Source: Heyndrickxia acidiproducens DSM 23148 (GTDB taxonomy: Bacteria > Bacillota > Bacilli > Bacillales > Bacillaceae_C). From it: 64,000 bases of DNA. The notes under the pieces were generated by a model. The model saw nothing but the letters and a program-made list of their open reading frames with translations, was not told the origin of the DNA and did no database searches. The stretch is from NCBI RefSeq assembly GCF_000374345.1, contig NZ_KB893976.1, forward strand, positions 62,001 to 126,000. Direction: 5' to 3'. Position 1 is the stretch's first letter, and each line of letters starts with the position of its first letter. This document shows, piece after piece, positions 7,553 to 28,091 of this stretch. Both the position numbers and the translations under genes were made by a program.

Positions 7553-7995
7553 ATTATCATTATAAATTTGAAAAAATTTTAGATGTCAAAGAAAGAGAGA
7601 AAGATGCAGCCCTCTCAACCTATCAACATGCTTTGCAGGCGTTTGAAGACACGGCCCGGGAACTCTATGCATTACTGAAAAAGAAAGAAGACTTGGAAGC
7701 CTATCAGGCCGCTAAAATTTCAACAGGGCTGTCCGTCCGGGAAATTCGGCATTATCAGCGGTTTATCGCAGATATAGAGAAATCTATCCATTACTACCAA
7801 CAGCTTGTTATGAAAGCCCGTAACAGAATGAACTGGCAACAGCAAAAATTACAGGAGAAAAATATTGAAGTGAAAAAGTTTGAAAAAATAAAGGATAAAG
7901 ATTACAGCCGCTTTCTCGAAAAATTAAAATTAGATGAAGAAAAACAAACGGATGAAATCTCCACACAAACATTCTTTCGGCACATTCGAAATTAG
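7549..7995 (+). CDS. fliJ: flagellar export chaperone FliJ
   Basis: FliJ is the coiled-coil stalk protein of the export ATPase, similar to the gamma subunit of F1, and cycles export chaperones. The product has 148 residues, is highly charged and predicted almost wholly helical (YKFEKILDVKEREKDAALSTYQ at the start). The start is ATG 7549, which overlaps the fliI stop as ATGA; a TTG two codons upstream is less well placed. Sequence conservation in this family is low, so the call leans on position and coiled-coil character. Confidence 0.9.
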   Translation: MNYHYKFEKILDVKEREKDAALSTYQHALQAFEDTARELYALLKKKEDLEAYQAAKISTGLSVREIRHYQRFIADIEKSIHYYQQLVMKARNRMNWQQQKLQEKNIEVKKFEKIKDKDYSRFLEKLKLDEEKQTDEISTQTFFRHIRN

Positions 7996-8003
7996 GTGAT
8001 CAC

Positions 8004-8636
8004 ATGGCAAAAAAAGCAGATGAACAAGAAGAAACGGAAATGGAAGAAGAAACCGGCCGGGGCGGCAAACTGCAGTGGTTTTGCTATGTTGTTCTGATTC
8101 CATTGCTTTTTGCAATTGCGATGGCACTGATTGTGGCAACTTTTTCCGGCATTAATGTCATCGGCAAAGCCGCCTCCGTTGAACACAAAATCACGAATTT
8201 ATTTGCAGGAGATGACAAAGAGCCGCAAAAACAATCGGATCCGGCCTACTCATCCAAGCAATATTCCGGACAGATTACGAAATTGGAAAAGCAACTTGAT
8301 GAAAGAGACAAGGAAATCGATAAGCTTCAATCCCAGCTGGACAGCAGCCGGCAGAAAAATTTAAAAACCGAGCAGCAGGTAAAGGATTTGCAGGCCCAGT
8401 TAAAAAAGGCGCAGCAATCACAGGCGGCGAACAAGAAAAAGATAAAGGAGATCGCCAGTACATACGAAAATATGTCGCCGGATAACGCAGCATCGATACT
8501 TGTCAAAATGAGCGATACAGAGGCCACCCAAATCCTCTCGCAATTAAGTTCTGATACGCTTGCAAGTGTTTTAGAAAAGATGAGTGCGGAAAATGCAGCA
8601 AAATACACTAAACTGCTTACCAATAAAGGCACATGA
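8004..8636 (+). CDS. ylxF: flagellar operon membrane protein YlxF (MgtE-N/MotE-like)
   Basis: The 210-residue product has an acidic cytoplasmic N-terminus, one membrane helix at about 25-49, a long coiled coil at about 88-150, and a C-terminal domain of about 55 residues like the N-terminal domain of MgtE (MSPDNAASILVKMSDTEATQ). YlxF of B. subtilis lies at the same place between fliJ and fliK and is required for motility in some relatives. The domain layout resembles MotE, a periplasmic chaperone of motor assembly. The exact role is inference. Confidence 0.88.
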   Translation: MAKKADEQEETEMEEETGRGGKLQWFCYVVLIPLLFAIAMALIVATFSGINVIGKAASVEHKITNLFAGDDKEPQKQSDPAYSSKQYSGQITKLEKQLDERDKEIDKLQSQLDSSRQKNLKTEQQVKDLQAQLKKAQQSQAANKKKIKEIASTYENMSPDNAASILVKMSDTEATQILSQLSSDTLASVLEKMSAENAAKYTKLLTNKGT

Positions 8637-13470: not shown

Positions 13471-14472
13471 TTGCCGGAAGAGATTTTATCGCAGTCTGAG
13501 ATTGATGCCTTGTTGTCTGCATTGTCGACAGGTGAAATGAATGCGGAAGAAATCAAAAAAGAAGAAGATACGCAAAAAATTAAAGTGTATGATTTCAAGC
13601 GGGCATTGCGCTTTTCAAAAGACCAGATTCGAAGCCTGACAAGAATACACGAAAACTTCGCGCGTATCCTGACCACATTTTTTTCCGCACAATTGCGGAC
13701 CTATGTTCAGATTACGGTGGCATCGGCGGATCAGATTCCCTATGAAGAATTTATCCGCTCCATTCCTAAATTAACGATTCTAACGGTTTATGAAGTCCCT
13801 CCGCTTGAGGGGAATATCATCATGGAGATTAATCCGAATATCGCTTATTCGATGATGGACCGTGTACTTGGCGGGTACGGGGACAGCATGAATAAAATTG
13901 ATAAATTGACAGAAATTGAAAAGAAAATCATGACAAGAATTTTTGAACAAATGATTGACCAGTTGAGGGAAGCATGGAGCGAAATTACAGATATCAACCC
14001 CTGCTTAACGGAATTGGAAGTCAATCCGCAATTTCTGCAGATGATCTCTCCAAACGAAACCGTTGTAGTGATATCGCTCAACATGACAATCGGCGAGACA
14101 AGCGGCATGATTAATTTATGCCTGCCCCAGGTTGTACTGGATCCAATCATTCCGAAATTATCCGGCCATTACTGGATGCAGCAGACAAATAAGCAGGCCG
14201 ATCCGGAAAACGTAAAATTGCTGGAAGAGGGCATAAAAGATGCGAAAGTTCCGCTTGCTGTCGAATTGGGATCAACCAGCATCAAAATTGAAGAATTCCT
14301 TCATCTGGAACTTGGCGATGTCATCCGGTTGAATCAGACGATTGCAGAACCCATGGTCGTGAAGATCGATAAAATACCGAAATTTCTCGGGCAGCCCGGG
14401 AAATCCGGTACAAAGATGGCTGTCCAGATCATGGACATGATTGTGGAAGGGGATGAAGAAAAGTATGAGTGA
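13471..14472 (+). CDS. fliM: flagellar motor switch protein FliM
   Basis: FliM is the C-ring component that binds phosphorylated CheY. The 333-residue product has the N-terminal CheY-P binding peptide (ILSQSEIDALLSAL, residues 5-18), the middle CheC-like domain (about 45-230) and a C-terminal SpoA domain (about 255-325). It begins at TTG 13471 with AAAAAGGGGG just upstream. Its end overlaps the start of fliY by 8 bases, so the two switch proteins are probably translationally coupled. Confidence 0.97.
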   Translation: MPEEILSQSEIDALLSALSTGEMNAEEIKKEEDTQKIKVYDFKRALRFSKDQIRSLTRIHENFARILTTFFSAQLRTYVQITVASADQIPYEEFIRSIPKLTILTVYEVPPLEGNIIMEINPNIAYSMMDRVLGGYGDSMNKIDKLTEIEKKIMTRIFEQMIDQLREAWSEITDINPCLTELEVNPQFLQMISPNETVVVISLNMTIGETSGMINLCLPQVVLDPIIPKLSGHYWMQQTNKQADPENVKLLEEGIKDAKVPLAVELGSTSIKIEEFLHLELGDVIRLNQTIAEPMVVKIDKIPKFLGQPGKSGTKMAVQIMDMIVEGDEEKYE

Positions 14473-15598
14473 TGATATGCTATCGCAAGAGGAAATTGAT
14501 GCCCTTCTAAATGGCACCGCCAACGAGGGAGAAAAGCCGGATTCAAGTACGCTGAATGTGGAAGATTATTTGGACTCGATGGAAAAGGATGCACTGGGTG
14601 AAATCGGGAACATTTCATTTGGGAGTTCGGCAACGGCTTTATCTACATTGCTGTCCCATAAAGTGGAGATAACGACACCCGAAGTCGGGATTGTGCGGCA
14701 TGATAAATTGGCGGATGAGTTTCCGCATCCGTATGTAGCGATTCAAGTAAAATACACGGAAGGCTTTTCAGGCATCAATGTGCTCGTGATCAAACAGTCG
14801 GATGCCGCAATTATTGCCGATTTAATGCTCGGGGGAACAGGCGAAAACCCAAGTTCAGATCTCGATGAAATTCATTTAAGTGCGGTTCAGGAGGCGATGA
14901 ACCAAATGATGGGTTCTGCGGCCACATCAATGTCCGCCGTATTCAATAAACGGATTGACATTTCGCCGCCAACTGTATCATTATTGAATATTTTGGAAGG
15001 AGAAGGAACGGATTCCCTGCCAAATCAGGAGCTTCTTGTCAAAGTCTCGTTCCGGCTCATGATTCATAACTTAATAGATTCGCAAATTATGCAATTGCTG
15101 CCGCTGCAATTTGCCAAAAGTCTTGTGGCTGATTTGATCCACCAGGACGGAGACACACAAGGCGCGCATCATCCTGCTTCCGAAAGCGAAAGAACTGAAG
15201 CGGACACGCCCGCCCGGCAAACTGAGGAGAGCAGTACGGAAAACGAGCAGGGACAAGTTCCGCCCAAACAGGAAACTTACCAAAATGTGCAGCCGGCCGT
15301 CTTTACCAGCTTCGAGGATACACAACCGCATATTGGAACCAAGAATCTCGATATGCTGCTTGATATTCCGCTTCAAGTTACGGTTGAGTTGGGAAGGACA
15401 TCCAAAACGGTAAGGGATATTCTTGAAATGGGGCCGGGTTCGATTATTGAATTGGACAAGCTCGCCGGGGAACCTGTGGATATTCTTGTAAACCATCAAT
15501 TGATTGCGATCGGCGAAGTCGTTGTCATCGACGAAAACTTCGGCGTTCGTGTAACTGACATTGTCAGCCAAAAAGACAGGCTCAAAAAATTAAATTAA
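14465..15598 (+). CDS. fliY: flagellar switch protein and CheY-P phosphatase FliY
   Basis: FliY sits in the C-ring of Bacilli and dephosphorylates CheY-P. The 377-residue product has an N-terminal CheY-binding peptide (MLSQEEIDALLNG), two CheC-type active-site motifs (ALGEIGNISFGSSATAL near 43-59 and AVQEAMNQMMGSAATSM near 140-156), an acidic and Gln-rich linker at about 232-285, and a C-terminal FliN-like SpoA domain (LDMLLDIPLQVTVELGRT). ATG 14465 is preferred over an upstream in-frame start because it follows GGGGATGAAG and gives the expected N-terminus. Confidence 0.97.
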   Translation: MSDDMLSQEEIDALLNGTANEGEKPDSSTLNVEDYLDSMEKDALGEIGNISFGSSATALSTLLSHKVEITTPEVGIVRHDKLADEFPHPYVAIQVKYTEGFSGINVLVIKQSDAAIIADLMLGGTGENPSSDLDEIHLSAVQEAMNQMMGSAATSMSAVFNKRIDISPPTVSLLNILEGEGTDSLPNQELLVKVSFRLMIHNLIDSQIMQLLPLQFAKSLVADLIHQDGDTQGAHHPASESERTEADTPARQTEESSTENEQGQVPPKQETYQNVQPAVFTSFEDTQPHIGTKNLDMLLDIPLQVTVELGRTSKTVRDILEMGPGSIIELDKLAGEPVDILVNHQLIAIGEVVVIDENFGVRVTDIVSQKDRLKKLN

Positions 15599-15615
15599 TA
15601 TTGGGGGAAGATGGT

Positions 15616-15978
15616 ATGGCAAATACAATTTTGGTTGTGGACGATGCAGCATTTATGCGCATGATGATTAAAGATATTTTGACGAAAAACGGCTATGAGG
15701 TCGTTGCTGAAGCCTCAGACGGCGCCCAGGCAGTTGAAAAATACCGTGAACACCGCCCGGACCTGGTAACGATGGATATCACCATGCCGGAAGTGGATGG
15801 CATCAGTGCTTTAAAGCAAATTAAACAGATTGACAGCAGCGCAAGGGTGATCATGTGCTCGGCGATGGGGCAGCAGGCGATGGTGATTGACGCGATCCAG
15901 GCCGGCGCCAAGGATTTTATTGTCAAACCATTTCAGGCGGACCGCGTCATTGAAGCCATCAAGAAATCATTAAGTTAA
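15616..15978 (+). CDS. cheY: chemotaxis response regulator CheY
   Basis: CheY is phosphorylated by CheA and binds FliM; in Bacillus CheY-P promotes counterclockwise smooth swimming. The single receiver domain of 120 residues has the acidic pair D9/D10, the phosphoacceptor D54 (TMDITMPEVDG), the conserved Ser in MCSAMG and the lysine in FIVKPF. The ATG at 15616 follows GGGGGAAG. It lies between fliY and fliZ, as in B. subtilis. Because CheB here has lost its own receiver, CheY is the only REC domain in this operon. Confidence 0.98.
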   Translation: MANTILVVDDAAFMRMMIKDILTKNGYEVVAEASDGAQAVEKYREHRPDLVTMDITMPEVDGISALKQIKQIDSSARVIMCSAMGQQAMVIDAIQAGAKDFIVKPFQADRVIEAIKKSLS

Positions 15979-21561: not shown

Positions 21562-22736
21562 AGATCAAAAAATTTTTAGCGCCCAATATGCCGGAAGCAA
21601 TGAAACAGATCCGCCTTGAACTGGGGGACCAGGCTGTCATTTTGAATTCAAAAGTCATCCAGCGCAAAGGCTTTCTCGGGTTTATGAAAAAAAGGAATAT
21701 TGAAGTCATTGCTGCAGTTGATCCTGAACCTGGAAAACCGCGACAAAGAGAGATCACGCCGGCAAAAATCGAATATGAAAAAGCAAAAGAGATCCGTACT
21801 GATTCCCGGGTTGAACCGGCTGAAGCAAACAAAAAACAAGCAGCTCGGGAAACGGAAAGCCTGCACAGGGAACTGGCAGAGTTAAAAAGAGCAGTACTGG
21901 AAATTTCCGGGTTTTCGAGTGCTGCTTTCCAAAAGTACCCGCTTAAGATCCAGAAGTTTCTGAGCCGTTGTACGGAACAGGAATTGGATAAAGCGTTCGT
22001 TTTATCGATTGGCGAGTGCCTGTTGGAGCAATGGAAAGCCCATGGCAAAGAGCCGTCAGAAGGCGATGTCCTGGATTGGGGCAAAGCGGTGATCAGAAAG
22101 AAACTGAGCCGCTTTGCCTGCGGAGAAATCCAAAGTAAATATGTCAATTTAATCGGCCCGACCGGAGTGGGGAAAACAACGACACTTGCGAAAATGGCGG
22201 CGGGCGCCGTATTGGATAAAAAAGAAAAAATTGCATTTATTACGACGGATACATACCGGATTGCGGCGGTCGAACAGCTCAAAACCTATGCCAATTTGTT
22301 AAATGTCCCGTTTGAAGTCATTTACAAATTATCGGATTTCCATAAAGCAATTGAAAAGTTTGCCGGTTTTGACCGCATTTATATTGATACCGCAGGACGG
22401 AATTACCGTGAAATCCAGTATATCCGGGAACTAAAAGGATTGATTGATTTCAATGAAAATATGGAAACATTCCTGGCTTTATCCATGACCATGAAAGAAA
22501 AAGATATGGCGGCCGTTATGGAAAGCTTTCAGGGCATCCGGATTGACCGTTTTATTTTTACGAAGCTGGATGAAACGGGAACTTATGGGGCCGGTGTGAA
22601 TCTCATGGAAAAATACGGAACAGGCTGCGCTTATGTGACAAACGGACAGGACGTCCCGGATGATATTATTGAGGCATCACCGGATACATTTATTCAATAT
22701 TTATTTGGGGAAAATGGCAATGAAAGACCAAGCTGA
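21558..22736 (+). CDS. flhF: SRP-type GTPase FlhF
   Basis: FlhF sets where flagella are placed. The 392-residue product has an N-terminal basic B domain, a linker with coiled coil and the SRP-like NG domain. The P-loop GPTGVGKTTT lies near 200-209, then TTDTYRIAAVEQLKTYA, DTAGR and TKLDETGTYGA. The ATG at 21558 overlaps the flhA stop. The end of flhF overlaps the flhG start by 17 bases. In B. subtilis FlhF and FlhG control flagellar number and position together. Confidence 0.96.
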   Translation: MKIKKFLAPNMPEAMKQIRLELGDQAVILNSKVIQRKGFLGFMKKRNIEVIAAVDPEPGKPRQREITPAKIEYEKAKEIRTDSRVEPAEANKKQAARETESLHRELAELKRAVLEISGFSSAAFQKYPLKIQKFLSRCTEQELDKAFVLSIGECLLEQWKAHGKEPSEGDVLDWGKAVIRKKLSRFACGEIQSKYVNLIGPTGVGKTTTLAKMAAGAVLDKKEKIAFITTDTYRIAAVEQLKTYANLLNVPFEVIYKLSDFHKAIEKFAGFDRIYIDTAGRNYREIQYIRELKGLIDFNENMETFLALSMTMKEKDMAAVMESFQGIRIDRFIFTKLDETGTYGAGVNLMEKYGTGCAYVTNGQDVPDDIIEASPDTFIQYLFGENGNERPS

Positions 22737-23583
22737 ATCATTACGCGCGCAATTAAAGAAACAGCACGGGCGGCCTGCCAAAACGTTTGCTGTTGTAAGC
22801 GGAAAGGGTGGTGTCGGGAAATCAAATATTTCGGTCAATATGGCTGCGGCACTTGCAAAACAGGGTTCCAAAGTACTGTTATTCGATATGGATATCGGTA
22901 TGGGAAATATTCATGTGCTGCTCGGGCTTGATGCTCCGTACACCATTTCGGATTTTATTCACCGCGGGATGGGGCTCTCGCAAATATTATGCAAGGGGCC
23001 GGATAATATTTCCTATATTTCGGCGGGGAATGGTTTTAATGAAGTAATCCGGATGGAAGATGCGGCAGTCGGAAAGCTCATAAACGAAATAGAATGGCTT
23101 CAATATGACTATGATTATATGATTTTCGACATGGGGGCAGGTGCGGCGGCGTCCAGCCTGCAAATTATGCTTTCGGTTGATGACATCTTTGTTGTGACAA
23201 CACCGGAGCCGACAGCCATAACGGACGCCTATTCGATGATAAAATATATATGCATGCAACAATTTGATTCGCCGCTCTATTTAATTTGCAACCGGGCAGA
23301 AAAAGAGAAAGAAGGGCTGGTGACTTTAAGCCGCCTGCGGTTTACCATTAAAAAATTTCTTGGTAAAGAAGCCGAAATCCTTGGCGTTGTCCCGGAAGAT
23401 TCCAATGTAAAAAAAGCTGTCTTAAGGCAAATGCCGTTTTATCTTGAATATCCGCATACATCTGCCGCAAAAAAGATAGATGCCCTGTTGCAAAGCTACA
23501 TCACCGGCTATGATTCAAAACGCACCGGTGGCGTACCGCTGTTTGTGCGTAAACTGCGGGGGCTTTGGCAAAAAAACAGCTGA
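22720..23583 (+). CDS. flhG: MinD-like ATPase FlhG (YlxH)
   Basis: FlhG regulates FlhF and C-ring assembly. The 287-residue product starts MKDQAESLRAQLKK, which carries the DQAxxLR motif known to stimulate the FlhF GTPase. A deviant Walker A motif KGGVGKS lies at 29-35, then DMDIGMGNIHVLLG and the Walker B FDMGAG. The ATG at 22720 is preferred because GGGG at 22707-22710 is 9 bases upstream; ATG 22714 would be too close. It is followed by an unusual 120-base gap before cheB. Confidence 0.94.
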   Translation: MKDQAESLRAQLKKQHGRPAKTFAVVSGKGGVGKSNISVNMAAALAKQGSKVLLFDMDIGMGNIHVLLGLDAPYTISDFIHRGMGLSQILCKGPDNISYISAGNGFNEVIRMEDAAVGKLINEIEWLQYDYDYMIFDMGAGAAASSLQIMLSVDDIFVVTTPEPTAITDAYSMIKYICMQQFDSPLYLICNRAEKEKEGLVTLSRLRFTIKKFLGKEAEILGVVPEDSNVKKAVLRQMPFYLEYPHTSAAKKIDALLQSYITGYDSKRTGGVPLFVRKLRGLWQKNS

Positions 23584-23703
23584 ACAGCCTTGGCTGAAAG
23601 AAAGCTTTCTGCTATCAAACGGAACCCGGGGAAGCTTTGAATCGGAGCCAGGATCTTAAAAAGGTGTGAGGCGTTTGTTGTTAAAAATGGGGAGGCAAGC
23701 TTT

Positions 23704-24387
23704 GTGAATACGCATCGTAATCAAAAACGACATGTTTCACCTGAAACCCCGGTATATCACCCGGCCGGGGAAGGCCCGGACCAGCAGCCGGCATCCAAAA
23801 GGCGGTCAGCAAGAAAAAAACTTGTATGCATCGGGACGTCAACAGGCGGGCCGCGTGCACTGCAAACCGTACTGGCATCCTTACCGGAGGGTTTGCCGGC
23901 GCCTGTTCTGGTCGTCCAGCATATGCCGCCGGGCTTTACAAGGCAACTTGCAAACCGTCTGAATTCAATTTGCCGGATTACGGTAAAAGAGGCGGAAGAC
24001 GGAGAAATTGTGCAAAAAGGCACCGCCTATATCGCACCTGGAGACTTTCACATGAAGGTAAGGGAACAGGCCGGGCAAATGGTGATACAGCTGGAACAAT
24101 CCCCTACAGTAAGCGGGCACAGGCCGGCAGTCGATCAAACATTTGAATCGATCAGCCGTCTGAAACATTACGATAAAGTGGCGGTTGTGATGACCGGGAT
24201 GGGTTCTGATGGAACAAAAGGTCTGATTCATTTAAAAAATGAAGGAAATGTCAAGGTCATTGCCGAATCAAAAGAAAGCTGCATTGTTTACGGGATGCCG
24301 AGAAGTGCAATTGCTGCGAATCTCGTGGATGAGATCAAGCATCTCAATGACATTGCAGATGCAATTATAGACTATATCAGTGATTAG
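23704..24387 (+). CDS. cheB: CheB methylesterase domain without receiver domain
   Basis: CheB removes methyl groups from chemoreceptor glutamates. The usual protein has about 350 residues, with an N-terminal receiver domain that is phosphorylated by CheA and a C-terminal esterase. This product has only 227 residues. Residues 1-38 are a basic linker and residues 39-227 are the esterase, with the catalytic triad S46 (GTSTGG), H73 (QHMPPGF) and D169 (MTGMGSDG) intact. No receiver is encoded in the 120 bases upstream or in any frame there. GTG 23704 follows GGGGAGG. Loss of the receiver should free the esterase from phosphorylation control. The truncation looks like deletion, not a frameshift. 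Confidence 0.93.
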   Translation: MNTHRNQKRHVSPETPVYHPAGEGPDQQPASKRRSARKKLVCIGTSTGGPRALQTVLASLPEGLPAPVLVVQHMPPGFTRQLANRLNSICRITVKEAEDGEIVQKGTAYIAPGDFHMKVREQAGQMVIQLEQSPTVSGHRPAVDQTFESISRLKHYDKVAVVMTGMGSDGTKGLIHLKNEGNVKVIAESKESCIVYGMPRSAIAANLVDEIKHLNDIADAIIDYISD

Positions 24388-24399
24388 GATGTGGTATTG

Positions 24400-26463
24400 A
24401 TGGAGATGAGCCAGTACTTAGAAATATTTATTGAAGAAAGCAAGGAACATATCCAATCCTTAAATGAAAATTTACTGTTGTTGGAACAAAATCCCCATGA
24501 TCTCGCCATTGTCAATGAAATTTTCCGGTCCGCCCATACTTTGAAGGGCATGTCCGCGACCATGGGCTATGAGGATTTGGCAAATTTAACGCACAAAATG
24601 GAAAATGTCCTTGATGCCATCCGCAATGAAAAGCTCCTCGTTACGCCTGACACGATAGATATTATTTTTACTGCGGTTGACCAGCTGGAGTCCATGGTGG
24701 ATTCAATTTCGGACGGCGGAGATGGAAAATTGGACGTACGTGACACCATCGCACAATTACATACACTTGAAAACGGCGGAAAGACGCCCCCGGCACACCG
24801 GGAGGTATCTGCCGCTGCTGCTGTTACGGATCAACAGGAAGCGGAAAACACCGGTGCCGGCCAATATGATGAGTATGAACAGACCGTTATCATTCAATCC
24901 GCCGAACAAGGCTACCATTGTTATGCGATTACGATCCGGCTCCGTCCGGATTGCCTGCTGAAGGCAGCACGTGTTTTTATGGTGTTCGAGATTCTTGAAA
25001 AAAGCGGTGAAGTCATCCATTCCAATCCACCGGTTGACCAGCTTGAAGATGAACAATTTGAGTTTGAATTTACAGTCACCCTGGTGTCAAAAGAGACTAG
25101 CGAAGAGATTAAACAAAAGATTTTAAAAGTTTCCGAGATAGAAGAGGTTGAAGCGAAAACGGTTGTCATAGAGCCGCATCATAACAATGACTCTGCCGTG
25201 CAGACTGCGCCTGCCGAACAAGCCCAAACTGCCCGGCATACGGAACAAAATCAGAAACAGATTCAAAATCCGAAAACAAAAGACAGCAAAACCGCTATTC
25301 ACCATCATAAAAATGCTTCGAAAACGATTCGTGTCAATATTGAAAGGCTTGACAACCTGATGAATCTATTCGAAGAACTTGTCATTGACCGCGGGCGCCT
25401 GGAACAAATCGCAAAGGAAGTGAACCATCCGGAACTCAATGAAACGGTGGAAAGAATGTCACGGATATCAGGAGATTTGCAAACGATTATTCTGAACATG
25501 CGCATGGTGCCGGTTGAAACCGTATTTAACCGGTTCCCAAGGCTTGTCCGGCAGCTGTCAAGAGATCTGAATAAGAAAATGAATCTCCGGATTATTGGCG
25601 CAGAAACCGAATTGGACCGCACCGTTATTGATGAAATCGGTGATCCGCTTGTGCATCTGATCAGAAACTCATGCGACCATGGCATTGAAACACCGGAAGA
25701 GAGAAGAGCCGCTAATAAATCTGAAACCGGCACGATTAAATTAAAGGCATACCACAGCGGCAACCATGTTTTCATTGAAATTGAGGATGACGGCGCCGGC
25801 ATCAATCGTGAAAAAGTACTGGAAAAAGCTGTTTCAAAAGGAATCGTGAAAGCGGATGAAGCCGGAAACTTAAGCGACAGTGAAATCTTCAACCTGATTT
25901 TTGAATCAGGCTTCTCCACTGCTGATAAAATTTCGGATATTTCCGGGCGGGGCGTCGGGCTTGATGTCGTGAAGTCGACGATCCAATCACTGAGCGGCAC
26001 AATTTCCGTGCACTCTGCAGAAGGGCAGGGTTCGGTTTTTACCATTCAGCTGCCGCTTACTTTATCTATCATTTCTGTTATGCTTGTTGAAATTGGCGCG
26101 GAGAAATACGCTGTGCCGCTTTCTTCCATTATTGAGACGGCTATCATTAAAAAGAGCCGGATTTTAAATGCACATCATCAGAAAGTGATCGACTTCAGAG
26201 GCAAAGTCGTTCCGCTTGTATTTTTAAATGATGTGTTTGATATTCCAAATGCAAATGTGGAAGATGAATTTGTTTCCGTGCTGATTGTGCGAAAAGGGGA
26301 TAAATTGGCTGCTTTTGTGGTCGATGCCTTTATCGGCCAGCAGGAAATAGTCCTCAAATCATTAGGAAACTATTTAACAAACGTTTTTGCCATCTCCGGT
26401 GCCACCATTCTCGGAGACGGGCAAGTTGCACTCATCATCGATTGCAACGCATTGATTAAATAG
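24400..26463 (+). CDS. cheA: chemotaxis sensor histidine kinase CheA
   Basis: CheA autophosphorylates and passes phosphate to CheY. The 687-residue product has the P1 domain with phosphorylated H46 (SAHTLKGMSATMG), a P2-like region (about 165-260), a poorly conserved linker, the P3 dimerisation helices (RVNIERLDNLMNLFEELVI), the P4 kinase domain with N-box (LVHLIRNSCDHGIE) and G boxes, and the CheW-like P5 domain. ATG 24400 gives MEMSQYLEIF, matching the B. subtilis start. All catalytic boxes look intact. One normal phosphate acceptor, the CheB receiver, is missing from this operon. Confidence 0.97.
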   Translation: MEMSQYLEIFIEESKEHIQSLNENLLLLEQNPHDLAIVNEIFRSAHTLKGMSATMGYEDLANLTHKMENVLDAIRNEKLLVTPDTIDIIFTAVDQLESMVDSISDGGDGKLDVRDTIAQLHTLENGGKTPPAHREVSAAAAVTDQQEAENTGAGQYDEYEQTVIIQSAEQGYHCYAITIRLRPDCLLKAARVFMVFEILEKSGEVIHSNPPVDQLEDEQFEFEFTVTLVSKETSEEIKQKILKVSEIEEVEAKTVVIEPHHNNDSAVQTAPAEQAQTARHTEQNQKQIQNPKTKDSKTAIHHHKNASKTIRVNIERLDNLMNLFEELVIDRGRLEQIAKEVNHPELNETVERMSRISGDLQTIILNMRMVPVETVFNRFPRLVRQLSRDLNKKMNLRIIGAETELDRTVIDEIGDPLVHLIRNSCDHGIETPEERRAANKSETGTIKLKAYHSGNHVFIEIEDDGAGINREKVLEKAVSKGIVKADEAGNLSDSEIFNLIFESGFSTADKISDISGRGVGLDVVKSTIQSLSGTISVHSAEGQGSVFTIQLPLTLSIISVMLVEIGAEKYAVPLSSIIETAIIKKSRILNAHHQKVIDFRGKVVPLVFLNDVFDIPNANVEDEFVSVLIVRKGDKLAAFVVDAFIGQQEIVLKSLGNYLTNVFAISGATILGDGQVALIIDCNALIK

Positions 26464-26504
26464 AACAGCCCCGGGAACTTGAACAAGAAAAGAGGATGAT
26501 ATTG

Positions 26505-26948
26505 ATGGAGAAAGTGATCGTGTTTCAGTTAAATGATAAAGAATATGCCGTTCCTGTACAGCAGGTGCTGTCGATCGAAAAACTGCAGCATATTACAAGG
26601 GTACCGCATACGCCTCCATATGTATCGGGGGTCATAAACCTGCGCGGCGTCATCATACCTGTTATTGATTTAAAACGACGATTTGCCATGGAAAGCGCAC
26701 AGGAAAACGCACAGGAAAGCGCTGAAAAACGGAGCTGCAAATTCATCATTGTAAATATTGCTGATATTGAAGTCGGGCTGCTTGTTGATGAAGCGACAGA
26801 CGTGCTTGATTTAGACGATGGCGCCATCGAACCCGAACCGGAAGTGGTCAACAGCAGCAAGGAAGAATATATTTCCGGTGTAGCCAATTTAAACCAAAGG
26901 CTGCTGATGCTTTTGAATCTGGATAAAGTCTTAACTCCTTTACATTAG
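26505..26948 (+). CDS. cheW: chemotaxis coupling protein CheW
   Basis: CheW links receptors to CheA. The 147-residue product is a single CheW domain with VFQLNDKEYAVPV at the start and the conserved GVINLRGVIIPVIDL stretch (about 45-59). ATG 26505 is preferred over ATG 26496 because AGAGG (26491-26495) is 9 bases from it. There is a short acidic Gln/Glu repeat (AQENAQESAEK) in the middle. It follows cheA by 41 bases and precedes cheC by 11. Confidence 0.96.
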   Translation: MEKVIVFQLNDKEYAVPVQQVLSIEKLQHITRVPHTPPYVSGVINLRGVIIPVIDLKRRFAMESAQENAQESAEKRSCKFIIVNIADIEVGLLVDEATDVLDLDDGAIEPEPEVVNSSKEEYISGVANLNQRLLMLLNLDKVLTPLH

Positions 26949-26959
26949 AGGTCTTCTAT

Positions 26960-27598
26960 ATGGATATTAAAAATAAAATTACGCCACTTCATTTGGATGT
27001 TTTAAAAGAGATCGGAAATATCGGGGCCGGCCATGCGGCGACCGCGCTTTCCAAGTTGCTGCATAAAAAAATTGATATGAAAGTGCCCAGGGTTCATATT
27101 GCCTCATTTAAAGAAATTATGGAGTTGATCGGCGGGGCCGAAATCGTTGTTGTCAGTGTCTTTTTAAGGATCGAAGGCGATGTGCCGGGAAATATCTTTT
27201 TCATTGTACCGGTTTCGCAAGGCGAACGGTTTATTAAAGAAATGATTGATGATCCGGACTTTTCTTTGCAACAACCGCCCTATTCCGAATTGGGGCTGTC
27301 TGCGATGCTGGAATTAGGAAATATTTTATCCGGGTCCTATTTAACCGCACTCTCCGATTTTACACAGTTGGATATGCTGCCTTCCGTCCCGGCGCTCAGC
27401 ATTGATATGTTCGGCTCAATCATCAGCTACGGTTTGATTGAACTTTCGCAAGTCAGTGATTACGCCATAGTAATTGATACAATTTTAAATGATGATCAGC
27501 CACTCAATACAGATGTAAAGGGGCATTTCTTCCTTTTTCCCGATCCTGCTGCATATGAAATCCTGTTCCGTTCGTTAAGGATTGAACTCGATGGATAG
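26960..27598 (+). CDS. cheC: CheY-P phosphatase CheC
   Basis: CheC hydrolyses CheY-P and is stimulated by CheD in the Bacillus adaptation system. The 212-residue product has two active-site motifs of the form E-x-x-N: KEIGNIGAGHAATAL (E17, N20) and LELGNILSGSYLTAL (near 118). Both are intact. The start is ATG 26960 with AGAGG upstream. Its stop overlaps the cheD start by 8 bases. Confidence 0.96.
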   Translation: MDIKNKITPLHLDVLKEIGNIGAGHAATALSKLLHKKIDMKVPRVHIASFKEIMELIGGAEIVVVSVFLRIEGDVPGNIFFIVPVSQGERFIKEMIDDPDFSLQQPPYSELGLSAMLELGNILSGSYLTALSDFTQLDMLPSVPALSIDMFGSIISYGLIELSQVSDYAIVIDTILNDDQPLNTDVKGHFFLFPDPAAYEILFRSLRIELDG

Positions 27599-28091
27599 CG
27601 AACTGAATATTGTCAAGGTAGGGATAGCGGAAATGAAAATCGTTTCCCCGCCGCGCATCATCAGGACAACCGGGCTGGGATCATGTGTTGGCGTGATCCT
27701 CTATGATTCGATGGCCAAGATAGCCGGCCTCGCCCACATCATGCTGCCCTCGTCACACATAGCCCGGGATCCTGAGCAGATGAATAAAGCAAAATTTGCA
27801 AATACTGCAATCAAAGAGTTGATAGCACAATTGTGCCTTGCCGGGTGTCATCCGGGACGTCTGAAGGCAAAAATGGCGGGCGGTGCCGAAATGTTTTCGT
27901 TTTCTTCCATGAATGATGCGATGCGGATCGGGCCGCGTAATATTGATGCCGTCATCAAAGAATTAAAGGACAACAAAATTGAACTGGTGGCAAAAGATAC
28001 GGGTGGCAAAAGCGGACGCACCATTGAATTTAATCCGCTGACCGGCATACTCACTGTTAAAACGGTGAACCGGGGCTGTAAAGAGATATGA
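27591..28091 (+). CDS. cheD: chemoreceptor glutamine deamidase CheD
   Basis: CheD deamidates receptor glutamines and activates CheC. The 166-residue product equals B. subtilis CheD in length. The catalytic cysteine and histidine are present: GLGSCVGV with C32 and GLAHIMLP with H49. The ATG at 27591 lies inside the end of cheC, giving coupled translation; AAGG is about 10 bases upstream. CheC and CheD give the cell a methylation-independent adaptation route, which matters because CheB here lacks its receiver. Confidence 0.96.
   Translation: MDSELNIVKVGIAEMKIVSPPRIIRTTGLGSCVGVILYDSMAKIAGLAHIMLPSSHIARDPEQMNKAKFANTAIKELIAQLCLAGCHPGRLKAKMAGGAEMFSFSSMNDAMRIGPRNIDAVIKELKDNKIELVAKDTGGKSGRTIEFNPLTGILTVKTVNRGCKEI

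Follow-up and report, generated by a model that had tools for sequence, protein, structure and literature searches.

A CheB methylesterase without a receiver domain in Heyndrickxia, and repeated receiver loss in Bacilli

Can chemotaxis of the Bacillus subtilis type run on a CheB that has no receiver for CheA to phosphorylate? The question is raised by one gene in the window analysed here, a 64,000-nt stretch of the Heyndrickxia acidiproducens DSM 23148 genome (contig NZ_KB893976.1, positions 62,001–126,000; positions below count from the first letter of the stretch). To our knowledge, most work on the role of CheB phosphorylation has used engineered E. coli mutants. The original prediction described this cheB (23704–24387, + strand, GTG start) as an esterase-only protein of 227 residues with S46, H73 and D169 conserved, a description that domain and alignment searches bear out. 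A non-conserved N-terminal tail of ~40 residues is followed by the esterase core at residues 41–221; the Pfam profile CheB_methylest (PF01339) is matched along its whole length (1–174 of 174) at 218.3 bits against a curated cut-off of 24, and is the sole domain, a Pfam search of the protein for Response_reg finding none. NCBIfam PRK00742 assigns the protein at 274.8 bits, under its curated cut-off of 293, with the match spanning profile positions 153–353 of 357. The Ser, His and Asp, which we take to be the catalytic triad of CheB, are invariant among 42 aligned CheB cores (from 52 rows; ten missed by the cutting pattern were excluded). They align with the S, H and D of the solved CheB chains 3sft and 6ymz, and chains 1chd and 1a2o match the protein over the triad-bearing stretch. 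In operon place and esterase the protein resembles the two-domain CheB of the B. subtilis type (PRK00742), and its identity to a CheB that does carry a receiver reaches 66% (L008), but the N-terminal receiver with its phosphoacceptor Asp is absent.

The gene lies where it was predicted to lie, in the che operon order flhG-cheB-cheA-cheW-cheC-cheD, and has the start signals expected of it. Upstream is the MinD/ParA-like flhG (22660–23583, given as the longest frame; its true start may be further down). The 120 nt from the flhG stop to the cheB start (23584–23703) occupy the place of the receiver coding region in full-length relatives; neither a receiver remnant, sought in six frames with a receiver HMM, nor a sigma-70-like promoter was found in this gap. 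An SD-like GGGGAGG with its spacer (23689–23703) precedes the GTG, which is the first start codon in a frame open for 21 codons 5′ of it. Downstream follow cheA (24391–26463), whose Pfam domains are Hpt, P2, H-kinase_dim, HATPase_c and CheW only, with no receiver; cheW (26496–26948); cheC (26960–27598), with both EIGN/ELGN-type motifs, presumably phosphatase motifs, in its translation; and cheD (27582–28091). Further upstream are fliY (14441–15598; a CheC-like phosphatase with a FliN C-terminus) and cheY (15601–15978), all on the + strand. Expected domains are present in CheA, CheW, CheC, CheD, CheY, FliM and FliY, in agreement with the prediction that the first five are intact. A CheV with receiver is encoded on another contig (C15).

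Over the whole genome (3.3 Mb in 103 contigs, 99.9% complete) PF01339 matches this CheB alone, so that the second, full-length CheB that had been considered as a counter-explanation was not found. An orphan receiver was also sought: no stray CheB-type receiver occurs among the receiver matches of the genome, and its three single-domain receivers are CheY and two that we take to be Spo0F-like and YneI-like.

The loss is real, and it is not peculiar to one genome. All five sampled genomes of the genus (the Heyndrickxia coagulans group), one of them a single contig, have a CheB without receiver in the identical position, flanked by flhG and cheA, in frames of 225–248 residues stop to stop; the esterases of H. 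coagulans 36D1 (L006) and DSM 1 (L007) are 67–68% identical to that of the window. The start codon is GTG in four genomes and TTG in one, and a G-rich SD-like sequence stands before each, here and in the four other members, which suggests that a single receiver deletion predates diversification of the genus. Across the family (34 genomes in seven genus groups) the receiver is deleted in 20 genomes, degenerate in two more and intact in 12. On a receiver HMM derived from 40 named CheB proteins (one of its rows, L071, probably duplicates genome G028), intact family receivers score 185–213 bits, and the 20 receiver-deleted genomes yield nothing above 5 bits. The distance from the flhG stop to the esterase is 11–240 nt in these 20, against 505–512 nt in the six flhG-linked genomes whose receiver is intact. 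The six genomes of group g7 (G028–G033) keep the receiver in a CheB that does not adjoin flhG. It lies near a CheR and another CheA-like frame, a full-length CheV match is absent from all six, and the chemotaxis genes of this group may have been replaced.

The two degenerate cases belong to Lederbergia-type genomes (G015, L139:4465–5574; G024, L148:4480–5583), in which a receiver-sized N-terminus is still in frame with the esterase. It scores 22–24 bits against 185–213 for the 12 intact family receivers, and goes unrecognised in a Pfam search at E up to 1. Its DD pair reads SD, the MPxM(D/N)G loop after the phospho-Asp is gone, and dN/dS is ~0.26, as against 0.05–0.15 in three pairs of intact receivers. 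This domain is likely an intermediate on the way to loss. A diverged CheB receiver was also observed in Virgibacillus sp. YIM 98842 (L061, bases ~7554–8615; 64 bits), where the MPxM(D/N)G loop is lost and the Lys of KPSG apparently reads as Arg. The three proteins share with the window CheB the missing canonical receiver signature, but they still encode a receiver-sized N-terminal domain.

How often the receiver was lost was approached with trees and wider samples. A 44-row tree of FlhG, CheA, CheW, CheC and CheD takes three changes for the absent working receiver, or at least two counting starred branches. AU tests on 33 rows reject placing all 22 family genomes that lack a working receiver in a single clade (p = 0.015) and marginally support separate deletions inside the Lederbergia-type group (p = 0.035), p values that lean low because the tested groups were named after seeing a tree. 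A clade of Heyndrickxia and G005 is not rejected (p = 0.62), and G005 also joins Heyndrickxia in a quick 111-row tree. Three independent family losses are thereby weakened, and we claim two as the minimum: judged from sequence, the receiver was lost at least twice within the family. The 111-row tree has nine changes, at least seven by starred branches, a rough number since that tree includes the esterase itself and warns of long branches.

Beyond the family, receiver loss was examined in CheB frames under 260 residues. In 299 genomes sampled across the order (265 of them with CheB), 2 of the 140 outside-family frames among the matches listed are that short, and both are frame breaks with an intact receiver. 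Among the matches listed of a class-wide sample (299 genomes, 174 with CheB), the count is 11 of 148 outside-family rows. In nine of these 11 loci the preceding 1500 nt contain no receiver; eight of the nine directly follow flhG (gap 16–67 nt), and a cheA match lies within the fetched stretch in seven of those eight (not in G355). The remaining two are a frame break (G370) and a locus with a separate CheY-like gene in front (G398); a long control, G461, shows its receiver at 165 bits. Clean receiver deletions thus occur elsewhere in the class Bacilli as well. Among named loci, a receiver scoring 60 bits or more precedes the esterase in 74 of 80, the six without being the two H. coagulans loci, Lederbergia citrea (L017), Bacillus sp. 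SD088 (L033), a Bacillota MAG with flhG absent from the stretch read (L062) and Gorillibacterium (L069).

Several candidates were set aside. G206 (L158) and G162 (L159) look receiverless by frame length, and an intact receiver stands in another frame; G370 (L180), L055 and L067 are likewise frame breaks, and none was counted as a loss. The breaks in these five fall between or within receiver and esterase, as a sequencing error, a pseudogene or a split gene would produce. In G398 (L183, 1583–2564) the CheY-like gene immediately precedes a lone CheB esterase frame, with a slight overlap, a possible two-protein CheB.

The esterase left without a receiver is under purifying selection. Among ten pairs without a working receiver, dN/dS is 0.07–0.14 in seven, 0.23 and 0.30 in two very close pairs, and undefined through saturation in one; three receiver-bearing control pairs give 0.05–0.07. 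The slightly higher values in receiver-free pairs, with dS near saturation in several, leave room for some relaxation. Triad motifs are kept in 22 of 22 family genomes without a working receiver. Esterase site 77 was tried as a docking signature (17 rows with against 20 without receiver) and failed in 109 rows, in which no clean signature of esterase residues covarying with receiver loss was found.

The partners of CheB are largely retained. CheR is present in 34 of 34 family genomes; in G008 the gene is split over two frames (C1:3333806–3334335), and no other CheR match occurs there. In the 28 flhG-linked genomes the operon also includes CheC and CheD matches. Outside g7, CheV is matched at full length in 24 of the 34 (G025 with one stop flagged) and over its CheW part only in four, in frames of 156–181 aa (L170 in G010, L171 in G014, L169 in G023, L172 in G026) that seem, judged by their neighbours, to sit at the usual chromosomal place of cheV. 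Leaving the six g7 genomes aside, loss of the CheV receiver shows no association with that of CheB: it is seen in 3 of the 22 genomes that lack a working CheB receiver and in 1 of the 6 that have one. Of 30 receptor loci of the genus, scanned on the longest frame, 21 contain what we take to be a methylation-type motif; nine do not, and in two loci (L105, L107) the longest frame is not the receptor.

Four other explanations of the short gene were weighed. The original prediction itself named bases lost in assembly as its weak point, and the genome is indeed a draft in 103 contigs; the breaks in G206, G162, G370, L055 and L067 also indicate that such errors or mutations occur. An assembly or sequencing artefact of ~300 bases can nevertheless be practically dismissed, as five separately assembled genomes agree, one of them single-contig, and in each the flhG-esterase gap is too short for a receiver. 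It is also unlikely that cheB is decaying and its esterase a relic, with adaptation left to CheD/CheC and CheV. CheD is kept and could modify receptors, and a receiver has, after all, decayed and been lost, but the complete set of triad motifs, dN/dS near 0.1 in seven of ten esterase pairs and the presence of CheR in all 34 family genomes speak against a relic.

Somewhat less improbable, though still unlikely, is a receiver acting in trans, by which CheY-P or another single-domain receiver would bind the esterase core. CheY is phosphorylated by the same kinase as a two-domain CheB, and in G398 the CheY-like gene stands immediately in front of the lone esterase gene. Against this, the genome of the window has no extra CheB-like receiver, clean co-varying esterase residues were not found, and the gene before its cheB is flhG. 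The core might instead also, or mainly, demethylate another substrate of a CheR-type enzyme, for example the kinase RsbK. The genome encodes at L165 (G000:C51) what we take to be an RsbK-RsbM-RsbY-like set with a second CheR-type methyltransferase, and two CheR matches occur in four of the five genus genomes. In B. cereus, RsbK is methylated by RsbM (available text of PMC4574943). This reading is very unlikely, given that G001, a member of the genus, combines a single CheR match with the same receiverless CheB, that 13 of the 22 family genomes lacking a working receiver likewise show one CheR match, and that cheB stays in the fla/che operon.

We therefore favor the reading, to which we give a probability of about 0.8, that the window cheB encodes a natural catalytic-only CheB, free of phosphorylation feedback from CheA. 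Together with some of the linker, the receiver would have been lost in an ancestor of the genus, with translation now beginning at a start codon that precedes the esterase. The esterase is then presumably neither inhibited by nor activated through a phosphorylatable receiver, so that its rate would depend on how much of it is present and on the state of the receptor substrate. Adaptation would run on activity-dependent demethylation against CheR, with contributions from the remaining phosphorylation loops (CheY-P with CheC/CheD, FliY, CheV).

A comparison is offered by engineered E. coli cells whose CheBc, like the window CheB, consists of the methylesterase domain only and has its phosphorylation feedback removed. 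The accessible part of PMC5809149 states that such cells can adapt precisely through activity-dependent feedback, their steady-state activity being more variable and their recovery more symmetric. By analogy, adaptation in Heyndrickxia would be preserved with altered, more symmetric recovery kinetics, and cell-to-cell variation would be greater unless CheR and CheB levels are matched. The original prediction expected demethylation to be constitutive, or controlled through expression, CheR or the CheC/CheD route; control of CheB by CheA through its own receiver is indeed gone, but constitutive demethylation need not mean that feedback is absent, as CheBc illustrates (same portion of PMC5809149). 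Unlike CheBc, the window CheB is natural and genus-wide, has its own start codon and N-terminal tail, and is encoded in an operon of the B. subtilis type that includes cheC and cheD, with cheV at a separate genomic place. The analogy may fail to carry over, the wiring of B. subtilis being different. There, cells without CheB or CheR run and tumble and lose precise adaptation, and further feedback in such systems is possible, on a model, via CheC/CheD, CheY-P and CheV (available portion of PMC340952). This additional feedback may be the reason that the loss is tolerated.

Receiverless CheB as such is already known. In the accessible text of PMC9321776 and PMC9239204 it is a defining marker of the Campylobacterota F3 class, alongside a receiver-bearing CheA and a core operon of the order cheVAW. 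The F3 CheB and the window CheB are both natural and both without receiver; unlike the F3 class, the window system has no extra receiver on CheA and no cheVAW operon, and its cheB stands between flhG and cheA. Our literature search, with subscription papers largely beyond reach, found no report of a receiverless CheB in Bacillota, and the present case appears new as far as the sources available go.

Whether control of CheB by phosphorylation is dispensable in B. subtilis-type chemotaxis, and has been shed many times, we judge an even bet. On that proposal CheY-P/CheC/CheD and receptor-state-dependent demethylation probably suffice, and intact, degenerate and deleted receivers would be visible steps of the path. 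Of the 22 family genomes that lack a working CheB receiver, 19 keep a full CheV. In the other three (G010, G014, G023) the CheV receiver is gone too, which would leave CheY the only phosphoryl acceptor among the Che proteins examined; if this is true, they represent a minimal, one-output form of the circuit.

These findings suggest that nature has repeatedly made the same deletion as the engineered mutants, in genomes that keep CheR, CheC and CheD. Recurrent loss thus provides natural experiments on the purpose of the CheB phosphorylation switch, and sister lineages with intact or decaying receivers offer a comparison to show when CheB feedback is needed. They also advise caution: the wiring of E. 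coli or B. subtilis should not be transferred to relatives such as H. coagulans.
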